Positions 12,758 to 61,211 of a stretch of 64,000 nucleotides of DNA are shown one piece after another. This DNA is from Halovenus salina (lineage in GTDB: Archaea > Halobacteriota > Halobacteria > Halobacteriales > Haloarculaceae), in the NCBI RefSeq assembly GCF_026410925.1, contig NZ_CP112972.1, positions 806,001 to 870,000 on the forward strand, read 5' to 3'. Every line of letters starts with the position of its first letter. Position 1 is the stretch's first letter. A program made the translations under genes and the position numbers. Below the pieces are notes generated by a model. That model did no database searches, had not been told where the DNA came from, and was given only the letters and a program-made list of their open reading frames with translations.

Positions 12758-14116
12758 ATGGAACGCATCGACGTCGCAGTCGTCGGCGGTGGTCCAGCAG
12801 GGACCTCGGCGGCGTGGCAGGCTGCCAAGCACGGCGCCGAGGCGGTCGTTTTCGAGAAGGGAGTTCCGCGGGCCGACCGAGATGGGATGGGCCCGGATTC
12901 GACCGACGCCGCCGGCCTGCTCGATTACTGGGTCGACCTGATGGGGTTCGATCCCGACGAGATCCCCGAAGACATCATCCTCCGTCGGCTCGATGGTGCC
13001 GACTTCATCGGACCCTCAGCGACGCTTTCACTCGACAACACCGGCATCAGCGCCTCGTATCCGCATTTCGGCTGTGCCTTCCACCGGGCGCGCTTCGACG
13101 ACTGGCTCCGCGAGCGAGCCGAAGACGCCGGCGGCCGCTATGCGGTCGGTGACAGTGTCACATCGGTCGAAACTCACGAGAACGGGGGGTACAGCCACAC
13201 GCTGACCCTCTCTGGTGGCGAGCAGGTCGAAGCCGAGTATCTCATTCTGGCGGACGGCCCACAGCGGACCGTCACGGTCGACACCCTCGACCAGTTCACC
13301 GCCGACGGTCACTCGATTGCCGACGTACTTGACCCCTCCTCGGTCAACCACATCGCCTACCAGGAACACCGCGAGGTCCCCGAGGAACTGTACGACCCAC
13401 ACCGGCTGAAGTTCTGGTGGGGCCTAATGCCCGGACACACCGCCTATCCGTGGGTATTTCCCAACGACGGCAACGTCGCTCGAATCGGCCTGACGATGCC
13501 TATCGGGCTGGATATCGAGGACTACGACCACCGCAAGTGGGCGCTGCTCCGGAGCGACGACGAGAAAATACCACAGGGGAAGACGTACATCGAACGCCTC
13601 ATTCATCGCGAGTATCCCGAGTACGACATTGAGGATTTCCCGCTCGTCGAAGAGCGAGGGAAGCGAAAGGGAACAGAGACGTACGCTATCTCCTCGACGC
13701 GGCCGATCGAGTCGCCGACGCGGGCGAACATCGCGGTCGTCGGCGGCGCGATGGGCGGCACCTCCGCGTTCCACGAGGGTGGCGACCACGTGGCCGTCCG
13801 GACCGGAAAAATCGCCGGTCGCCTGGCGGCACAGGGGCAACTCGACCGGTACAACAGTGAGTGGAAGGGGGCCCTAGATACAGAGTTCCTCCGGAACGTC
13901 ACGATGGCCGACCTCGTCAGAGAGTACGAGCCGGCAGACTGGGACCGCGCCTTCGAGACCGCCGGGACGATGACCAATCAGGGCGAGCGCTCGCTGCTCG
14001 GGCTGCTCAAATCGGGACTCTCCGGCGTCAAGCTCCTCCGGGAGTACCAGCGGCGGAAGCGCTCGTTCTCCGACGGCAACTACGTCCAGTTCAGCGAGTC
14101 GGAGTACAGCTTCTAA
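12758..14116 (+). CDS. Geranylgeranyl reductase-family FAD-dependent oxidoreductase
   Basis: A flavoprotein of 452 residues with an N-terminal FAD-binding VVGGGPAGTSAAWQAAKHG motif, mid-protein LILADGP, and a late IAVVGGAMGG...HEGGDHVAVRTG motif characteristic of geranylgeranyl reductases. The family hydrogenates isoprenoid double bonds of archaeal ether lipids or menaquinone, or forms part of related reductases; haloarchaea carry several paralogues, so the exact substrate is uncertain. A good TATA box sits 25 bases upstream of the ATG. It is convergent with coaD. Confidence 0.85.
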   Translation: MERIDVAVVGGGPAGTSAAWQAAKHGAEAVVFEKGVPRADRDGMGPDSTDAAGLLDYWVDLMGFDPDEIPEDIILRRLDGADFIGPSATLSLDNTGISASYPHFGCAFHRARFDDWLRERAEDAGGRYAVGDSVTSVETHENGGYSHTLTLSGGEQVEAEYLILADGPQRTVTVDTLDQFTADGHSIADVLDPSSVNHIAYQEHREVPEELYDPHRLKFWWGLMPGHTAYPWVFPNDGNVARIGLTMPIGLDIEDYDHRKWALLRSDDEKIPQGKTYIERLIHREYPEYDIEDFPLVEERGKRKGTETYAISSTRPIESPTRANIAVVGGAMGGTSAFHEGGDHVAVRTGKIAGRLAAQGQLDRYNSEWKGALDTEFLRNVTMADLVREYEPADWDRAFETAGTMTNQGERSLLGLLKSGLSGVKLLREYQRRKRSFSDGNYVQFSESEYSF

Positions 14117-14135: not shown

Positions 14136-14654
14136 TCACTCCAGCAGGCGGCCGTGTTCGTCGATCTCGCCGTTGCGGATGCGTGTGCTGCTGATTCGGG
14201 TGCCGTCCTCAGCGACGACAAAGGGGGCCGTGTGAATTTCGAGCCGAGGCAGGTCGTTCGCGACGCGCGTCTCGTTGAGTTCGTAGGCACGTCGCTGTGC
14301 TTTGGCCTCGGGCGAGACCACGAGCGCGTCGGCGTCGGGCCGAGAGGCTGCCGGGCCGTGTGTGTCTTCGAGCGTGACAATCTCGTAGCTGGCACTGTAG
14401 GTATTGGCGAGGTTCTCCAATTCCGCGTCGAGTCTGTCACGGCGTTCCTCGATCGGGCCGAGCTGTGCGGCGTGGTCTGGGTCGCTCCGTGTCTGCGTGG
14501 CGACGGCTGAATCCGTGAGACCGACGATGACGTGGCCGTCGCCGGTCCCGTCGTGGCTCGCCGTCTGGAACGCGGTATGTAACAGCGCCCGGTGGCCGTT
14601 GTGAATTGGGGTGAACGTTCCCCCGAGGATTGCAATCCGTTCGTTTCGAGTCAC
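14136..14654 (-). CDS. coaD: Archaeal-type phosphopantetheine adenylyltransferase
   Basis: Catalyses ATP-dependent adenylylation of 4'-phosphopantetheine in coenzyme A synthesis. Signatures are GGTFTPIHNGH near the N-terminus and ISSTRIRNGEID near the C-terminus, the paired nucleotidyltransferase motifs, with the spacing of the archaeal PPAT family. I use the GTG at 14654 (VTRNERIAIL), which puts the first motif about eight residues in; another in-frame GTG at 14669 would add five residues. It is unrelated in sequence detail to NadM at 205-720, although both share the fold. Confidence 0.88.
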   Translation of the reverse strand: MTRNERIAILGGTFTPIHNGHRALLHTAFQTASHDGTGDGHVIVGLTDSAVATQTRSDPDHAAQLGPIEERRDRLDAELENLANTYSASYEIVTLEDTHGPAASRPDADALVVSPEAKAQRRAYELNETRVANDLPRLEIHTAPFVVAEDGTRISSTRIRNGEIDEHGRLLE

Positions 14655-14669
14655 AGTTCCGTTATACAC

Positions 14670-14983
14670 GGTCGATTGTCGTATACGTACTGGTTCGGAC
14701 CGAAGGCAGGGTTCATGTCCTCCCAGCTCAAAGGGTGGGTGCGTGCCCTAGTCCCCGCCAGAGTAGACCCATACGGGTGCAATGACGCGCGGCGAACCCG
14801 GGCACGCGACAGACCGGACGACAGTGTCCATCGATTCGGAAAACGCCCGCACGAGGGTTAGCCGGCTGACGCGGCACGCCGCCAGGGATGATGCCGGTCG
14901 TTAGTGTTTCGGGCGTACATTTTCCGCGAGACAGTGAGCTTCTTGAGCCGGTGGCCCGAACAACAAAGACGGTGTATCCGTCG
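14670..14983. other. 313-base gap without a convincing protein gene
   Basis: Short open frames on both strands here lack protein-like composition. The only ordered signal I find is the H/ACA-like hairpin at 14741-14811. Bases 14812-14880 can form a second weak hairpin (CAGACCGG with CCGGCTG) but without a clear ACA box. Confidence 0.6.
14741..14811 (+). ncRNA. Candidate H/ACA-type guide RNA hairpin (23S pseudouridylation)
   Basis: An 8-bp perfect lower stem (GCGTGCCC at 14741-14748 with GGGCACGC at 14800-14807) encloses a pocket and an upper hairpin (ACCC-ATAC-GGGT) whose 3' strand contains AATGA, resembling the bulge and GA of a kink-turn. ACA lies one base after the stem (14809-14811), and 14 bases separate the top of the 3' pocket strand from ACA, the spacing H/ACA guides require. 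The 3' pocket strand AACCC can pair with GGGUU, and GTC in the 5' strand with GAC. This fits the conserved 23S stretch GGGUU-U-A-GAC, whose third U (E. coli 2586 equivalent) is pseudouridylated in haloarchaea. The upper stem is imperfect and the 5' pairing is only three bases. Confidence 0.42.
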
Positions 14984-15157
14984 ATGAGACGACCCTCGGA
15001 GTGCCCGAACTGTGGTATCAGCTGGGAAGGCCACGAGCCTGCTGAGGCACAGGTCAAACCGACCGACGCCGAGCGCTTCGAGATAGCGTACTACACCGAG
15101 ACGGAGTCCGGAGCGTGGCGATGTCTTCGGTGTTCACACGTCACGACGGGCGATTGA
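14984..15157 (+). CDS. Small CxxC zinc-finger protein, 57 residues
   Basis: The frame starting MRRPSECPNCG contains CPNC near the N-terminus and CLRC near the C-terminus, a four-cysteine zinc site enclosing about 35 residues. Small proteins of this kind are numerous in haloarchaea and mostly of unknown function. I chose the ATG at 14984 because the frame upstream, although open, is not protein-like. It lies ten bases from the convergent DoxX-type gene. Confidence 0.7.
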   Translation: MRRPSECPNCGISWEGHEPAEAQVKPTDAERFEIAYYTETESGAWRCLRCSHVTTGD

Positions 15158-60164: not shown

Positions 60165-61211
60165 ATGATGACGTCCGACGAGATTCGAGAGCGCCTTCGA
60201 GCGGTGGAGGACCCACATCTGGGCGACGATATCGTCACACTTGGACTGGTCCGGGAGGTAACCGTCGACGACGAGGCCGAGACAATCCGAGTGACGCTCG
60301 GGCTCGGTGCGCCCTACTCGCCAACAGAGACGTCGATAGCGGGCCGCGTTCGCGACAAGCTGGACGATAGCGGCTACGAAATCGACCTGACGGCGGCGGT
60401 CGACAGAGGCGTCGACCCCGAGGAGACGGTGCTCCCGAACGTCAAGAACATTATCGCCGTCGCCTCGGGCAAAGGCGGCGTCGGCAAAAGTACCGTCGCG
60501 GCGAATCTAGCGGCCGGCCTCGCCGACCTCGGCGCACGGGTCGGGCTGTTCGACGCCGACGTGTACGGTCCGAACGTCCCCCAGATGATGGGGACCGACG
60601 AACAGCCACAGGTCACCGAGGACGAGACAATGCTCCCGCCGGTCGCCCACGGCGTCGAGATTATGAGCATGGAGTTCCTGCTCGGCGAGAGCGCCCCGGC
60701 TATCTGGCGTGGGCCGATGGTCCACAAGGTTCTCACCCAGCTCTGGGAGGATGTCGACTGGGGGCGTGGCGGTAGCCTCGATTACATGGTCGTCGACCTC
60801 CCCCCTGGGACCGGCGACACCCAGCTGACGATGCTCCAGAGCATCCCCGTCTCGGGCGCGGTCATCGTGACGACTCCCCAAGCGGTCGCACTCGATGACG
60901 CAGAACGAGGGATGGAGATGTTCGGCGAACACGAGACCCCCGTCCTCGGTATCGTCGAGAACATGTCGACGTTCGTCTGTCCGGACTGCGGCGGCCGTCA
61001 CGACATTTTCGGCTCCGGCGGCGGCGAAACGTTCGCCGAAGAAACAGATATGCCGTTCCTCGGGTCGATTCCGCTCGACCCGGCAGTCCGTACGAGTCAA
61101 AATCCCGTCGTCCTCGGCGACGATGAAACCGCGGATGCGGTCACCGAGTTCGTCGAAACCACCGTCGACATGCAGGGCGTCGTCCACCGACGGCGAGAGT
61201 CCTCCCGCTGA
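60165..61211 (+). CDS. Mrp/NBP35-type iron-sulfur cluster carrier ATPase
   Basis: A 348-residue protein that delivers Fe-S clusters. An N-terminal MIP18/DUF59 domain (about 1-90, IRERLRAVEDPHLGDDIVTLGL) precedes the P-loop NTPase with the deviant Walker A GKGGVGKST and VVDLPPGTGDTQLT. Two cysteines in FVCPDCGGRH form the cluster-binding CxxC. The ATG at 60165 is preferred over a GTG nine bases before. It lies 106 bases upstream of the antiporter operon. Confidence 0.93.
   Translation: MMTSDEIRERLRAVEDPHLGDDIVTLGLVREVTVDDEAETIRVTLGLGAPYSPTETSIAGRVRDKLDDSGYEIDLTAAVDRGVDPEETVLPNVKNIIAVASGKGGVGKSTVAANLAAGLADLGARVGLFDADVYGPNVPQMMGTDEQPQVTEDETMLPPVAHGVEIMSMEFLLGESAPAIWRGPMVHKVLTQLWEDVDWGRGGSLDYMVVDLPPGTGDTQLTMLQSIPVSGAVIVTTPQAVALDDAERGMEMFGEHETPVLGIVENMSTFVCPDCGGRHDIFGSGGGETFAEETDMPFLGSIPLDPAVRTSQNPVVLGDDETADAVTEFVETTVDMQGVVHRRRESSR

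Follow-up and report, generated by a model that had tools for sequence, protein, structure and literature searches.

A two-hairpin H/ACA guide RNA in Halovenus salina, the probable counterpart of a guide known from other haloarchaea and predicted to act on 23S rRNA

Introduction

In a 64,000-nucleotide stretch of Halovenus salina DNA (the window), a gap of 201 bases between two genes contains a hairpin at 14741–14811, which was originally predicted to be an H/ACA guide RNA. None of the ORFs spanning this gap matched a Pfam family. The locus raises the question of whether this hairpin is a genuine guide and, if so, which uridines it would serve. The gap holds the gene for a guide RNA of about 180 nt with two H/ACA hairpins, the hairpin at 14741–14811 being only its 5′ half. 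Almost certainly, the locus is orthologous to the double-hairpin H/ACA guide of other haloarchaea (HP1+HP2, also Hvo1+Hvo2 or sR-h45) and would guide Cbf5 on 23S rRNA. The name sR-h45 is presumably the later one for the HP1/HP2 RNA of Haloferax volcanii.

Rfam 15 includes further guide RNAs of this class, but a search against it returned no family whose gathering score was reached here; the top match, to Deinococcus Y RNA (15.9 bits), was a chance one, and at a permissive threshold only chance matches were obtained. The locus is a near-universal, single-copy ribosome-modification gene that has been overlooked by standard RNA-family annotation, having no Rfam family, and the new covariance models described here recover it across the class.

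Structure of the guide RNA

The sequence features on which the original prediction was built are found in the 5′ hairpin, HP1 (Table 1). Its perfect 8-bp stem is formed by GCGTGCCC and GGGCACGC (14741–14748/14800–14807) and is extended to 9 bp by a U–G pair between 14740 and 14808, placing the ACA box one base past the 8-bp stem, as had been described. The top of the AACCC pocket strand lies 14 bases from the ACA, the AATGA kink-turn-like element occurs within AATGAC, and AACCC is complementary to the organism's own 23S rRNA, whose sequence around the position equivalent to E. coli 2586 is GGGTTTAGACCGTC. As originally noted, only three bases pair in the 5′ pocket (GUC with GAC). Folding gave z = −2.9. 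The minus strand of 14741–14811 folds slightly better; however, only the plus strand is compatible with the ACA boxes, K-turns, pockets and promoter. An alternative register of the HP1 upper stem, with which another site scores slightly higher, was likewise rejected, its stem not being conserved in relatives.

Taken alone, these features amount to no more than chance, and it is conservation and prior knowledge that decide. A bare descriptor (8-bp stem, ACA within 2 bases, 45–63-base interior, TGA in the 3′ half) has four matches in the window, at three distinct places, compared with 1.0 per simulated 64 kb. The weakness of the descriptor alone is illustrated by a chance-level hairpin at 60544–60610, which satisfies it with an 8-bp stem and an ACA.

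The reading of the locus as a single hairpin holds for HP1 but is incomplete, having missed a second, equally conserved H/ACA hairpin (HP2), which lies about 30 bases downstream and ends in its own ACA. The distance from pocket top to ACA in HP2 is 15 or 17 nt, depending on the pairing register (14 nt in HP1), where about 14–16 nt is expected. Conserved GA/AUGA K-turn-like elements are rightly placed in both hairpins, and are predicted to bind L7Ae.

Table 1. Features of the guide RNA locus and its surroundings in the window
Feature	Position	Strand	Remarks
FAD oxidoreductase	12758–14116		
Cytidylyltransferase-like gene	14136–14669	minus	Pfam PF01467; one side of the gap
Promoter-like block	14702–14717	plus	BRE-like GAAGGC and degenerate TATA-like TTCATG; shared by orthologues
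HP1, 5′ H/ACA hairpin	14740–14811	plus	R1 covariance model, 84.9 bits, E 2.5e-18
HP1 lower stem	14740–14748/14800–14808	plus	9 bp
HP1 5′ pocket, GUC	14751–14753	plus	pairs with GAC after the target UN
HP1 upper stem	14755–14758/14789–14792	plus	apical stem above
HP1 K-turn-like element, GA/AATGAC	AATGAC at 14781–14786	plus	
HP1 3′ pocket, AACCC	14795–14799	plus	pairs with GGGUU preceding own 23S U2616 (E. coli 2586)
HP1 ACA box	14809–14811	plus	
Spacer between HP1 and HP2	14812–14842	plus	about 30 bases; sequence unconserved, length very variable in relatives
HP2, 3′ H/ACA hairpin	14843–14919	plus	R2 covariance model, 97.5 bits, E 2.2e-28
HP2 lower stem	14843–14849/14910–14916	plus	
HP2 5′ pocket, GAGGGUUA	14853–14860	plus	pairs with UGACCCUC of helix 69
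HP2 upper stem	14862–14866/14893–14897	plus	K-turn-like UGA/AUGA
HP2 3′ pocket, GUUA (1915 register) or UAGU (1917 register)	14900–14905	plus	before own 23S U1951 or U1953
HP2 ACA box	14917–14919	plus	
Small zinc-ribbon ORF	conserved part from near ATG at 14984		downstream side of the gap

Upstream of 74 aligned orthologues, GAA and TTTAA-like (BRE/TATA-like) sequences are enriched at a fixed distance, with an AT fraction of 0.59–0.96 at −40 to −36 against about 0.33 around it. The window's copy of this block is degenerate, and its TATA-like element is poor. The shared promoter-like block and the lack of conservation of the downstream gene support a free-standing gene, from which a short RNA would be transcribed on the plus strand under its own promoter. 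Genes for Cbf5, Gar1 and Nop10 are present. In each hairpin, L7Ae would sit at the K-turn-like element and Cbf5–Nop10–Gar1 at the pocket and ACA box.

Conservation and covariation

With the 201-base gap as query, BLAST gave matches in 47 of the 59 relatives searched, from many families of the order, in two conserved blocks, which correspond in the alignment to the HP1 hairpin and the second hairpin. Covariance models of HP1 and HP2 each recovered 144 of the 145 genomes of the class, with the two matches adjacent and on the same strand, and within the window the next matches after HP1 and HP2 were at noise level. It is this conservation that raises the hairpin above chance. Among orthologues, the stretch separating the two matched patterns ranges in length from 0 to 248 bases. 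A DNA pattern scan of genome contigs also gave many bacterial chance matches, which were discarded.

The conservation check named with the original prediction came out in its favour, the stems covarying and the pocket being conserved across the class. Among 60 aligned orthologues, 96.0% of the cells in the HP1 stems are paired, and nine pairs (65 cells) have changed on both sides, which was reached in 0 of 500 shuffles. For HP2, the corresponding values are 96.5% and eight pairs (45 cells; 0/500 shuffles), with some lower-stem counts affected by seven Halovenus-like rows whose lower stem is shifted by a single position in the alignment; in the correct register, 6–8 bp of this stem are kept in 74/74 orthologues. 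Slid-partner controls gave far lower covariation throughout for both hairpins. An ACA or AUA box stands at the expected distance in 68/74 (HP1) and 74/74 (HP2) orthologues. The invariant letters are those of the pockets, K-turn and ACA boxes, with GAACC at the HP1 3′ pocket in nearly all orthologues, and the pockets remain constant while the stems change, although pocket conservation is partly built in, since the pocket letters belong to the pattern that fetched many of the orthologues; the gap BLAST and covariance-model searches are less affected. The H/ACA architecture of lower stem, pocket and upper stem is thus backed by covariation, and the claimed guide identity is borne out by two hairpins with covarying stems, pockets, K-turn-like elements and ACA boxes.

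The sole genome of the 145 without either hairpin (G081) is a draft of 120 contigs that carries the rRNA-adjacent hairpin described below, and the absence of both hairpins is probably an assembly gap. In a 1.9 Mb genome from another family (G044), both hairpins are very divergent (L175:677–833, minus; 36 and 43 bits) and keep the main pocket letters, making this copy useful for rooting the RNA family. Genomes of a single genus (g2), probably Halorhabdus, carry partial copies of the HP2 3′ end (around UAGUGUUCCGGGCGUACACUACGA) about 0.2–0.9 kb downstream of the gene (L172:745–832, L173:528–615 and L174:38–110, all minus), which may form a third hairpin, stem from a duplication or mark an integration scar.

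Predicted rRNA targets

A 2008 study predicted a pair of hairpins with a long spacer between them for H. volcanii and further halobacteria, assigning HP1 to psi-2621 (E. coli 2586) and HP2 to psi-1956/1958 (E. coli 1915/1917) (PMC2584109). A later publication lists them as Hvo1 and Hvo2, giving the Hvo1 fold as 10/5/9, and treats H. volcanii as experimentally validated on the basis of a 2011 paper (PMC4652768). In a scan of the organism's own rRNAs (16S, 23S and 5S; 816 uridines), the best site for HP1 was 23S U2616 (5′-GGGUU-U-A-GAC, E. coli 2586; 5+3 bp), the very uridine that had been proposed, and the best for HP2 was U1951 (UAAC-U-A-UGACCCUC, E. coli 1915; 4+8 bp). In a shifted register, which was read by hand, HP2 pairs around U1953 (E. 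coli 1917) through UAGU/ACUA and GAGGGU/ACCCUC, its 5′ pocket then pairing by 6 bp rather than 8 bp. Both hairpins show bipartite complementarity that leaves UN unpaired, with the published sites as their best rRNA sites, suggesting that HP2, the 3′ hairpin, serves E. coli positions 1915 and 1917 in helix 69. The stem of haloarchaeal helix 69 differs from that of E. coli, and the HP2 match was found from the organism's own 23S rRNA, not with the E. coli sequence.

Permuted pockets found an equally good rRNA site in 233 of 300 cases for HP1 and 58 of 300 for HP2; pocket pairing alone is not selective. The target assignment is convincing because the sites were named beforehand by published work, not because such pairing is rare. 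In the proposed action, the HP1 pocket would pair by 5+3 bases around U2616 in the peptidyl-transferase centre, and the HP2 pocket around U1951 or, in the shifted register, U1953 in helix 69, whereupon Cbf5 would isomerise U2616, U1951 and U1953 to pseudouridine.

Alternative explanations

One rival reading is that the hairpin and its ACA arose by chance and are complementary to rRNA by accident. In its favour, a random 64 kb holds about one match to the bare descriptor, and permuted HP1 pockets often find rRNA sites that are equally good. However, the conservation of covarying stems in essentially the whole class already refutes this explanation, to which we give practically no weight. The intergenic position, ahead of the small zinc-ribbon ORF and with a homologue of the FAD oxidoreductase at 12758–14116 near 41 of 83 loci, could instead point to a regulatory element acting in cis, a leader or terminator that belongs to a neighbouring gene and is merely H/ACA-like. 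This is very improbable: of the 83 loci, just 2 have the downstream gene and 9 an adenylyltransferase-like neighbour, the hairpins have their own promoter-like block, and the letters that do not vary are those of an H/ACA guide. The unconserved downstream gene, combined with the FAD oxidoreductase near 41/83 loci, argues in particular against the hairpins being that gene's leader.

An H/ACA RNA acting mainly on tRNAs or mRNAs, rather than on the published 23S sites, would be compatible with a scan that covered rRNA only and with the three-base pairing of the HP1 5′ pocket. However, the published sites ranked first for both hairpins and the pockets stay constant as the stems change, so that main targets of this kind are scarcely to be expected. 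The reading of the locus as an orthologue of the known double-hairpin guide of 23S rRNA is thus retained.

A further hairpin beside the rRNA operon

Weaker second matches of the HP1 model in four genomes of one family were used to build a model of another H/ACA-like hairpin, which lies outside the window (G000:C1:1621800–1621878, minus; L187:8301–8379, minus). This model matched 223 of 293 genomes of the order and 69 of 78 genera, including the window's own genome, whereas in several genera among the 293 genomes the model search did not find the hairpin; Rfam has no family for it. A 16S gene can be seen 576–879 bases downstream on the same strand in 36 of 47 loci; the remaining loci, with no 16S in view, are mostly short or lie at a contig end, one being an exception. 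Its features include a K-turn-like element, a box reading ACA or AUA and a 3′ pocket, CCUCC, that hardly varies, and in an alignment fitted to the structure covariation is strong (11 pairs and 101 cells, with 0/500 shuffles for the cells).

Its targets were ambiguous from two genomes of one family, and the wider alignment favoured 23S U2602 (GGAGG-U-C-GUGAG, E. coli 2572) as the best common rRNA site. U2602 ranked first of the 816 uridines for 17 of 23 distinct pocket pairs, at a constant offset, and permutation controls were as good in 1/150 cases by first ranks and 11/150 by total score; the statistical support is thus moderate, and U2602 is a tentative candidate target. In H. volcanii, a Cbf5-dependent pseudouridine has reportedly been found near the E. 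coli 2572 position. Haloarchaea may carry a second, undescribed H/ACA guide, a single hairpin 0.6–0.9 kb upstream of 16S on the same strand that would direct pseudouridylation of 23S U2602, a proposal that we regard as possible, with somewhat less than even confidence. If it is true, a guide for the ribosome's peptidyl-transferase region adjoins the rRNA operon that it serves, and its confirmation would add to the few pseudouridine guides known in haloarchaea.

Comparison with known guide RNAs

The RNA as such was known before, from Haloferax volcanii, and the locus is almost certainly a new orthologue of it. As in HP1/HP2 (Hvo1/Hvo2) of that species, which belongs to another genus, two H/ACA hairpins occur in one RNA, in the same order on one strand and with a long spacer, and the targets assigned here are the same, namely 2586 for the 5′ hairpin and 1915 plus 1917, by alternative pairing, for the 3′ hairpin. 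The orthology to Haloferax sR-h45 proposed at the outset is upheld by this agreement with the published description. The published Hvo1 fold, 10/5/9, is also consistent with HP1 in the window, where the 3′ pocket has 5 nt and the lower stem 9 bp (PMC4652768).

The kinship extends, by description, to the Thermococcales Pf7/Pab40 H/ACA sRNA, which has three adjacent hairpins, in contrast to the two spacer-separated hairpins in the window. Stem II of that RNA is given as the homologue of HP1, and stem III as the homologue of HP2 (PMC2584109).
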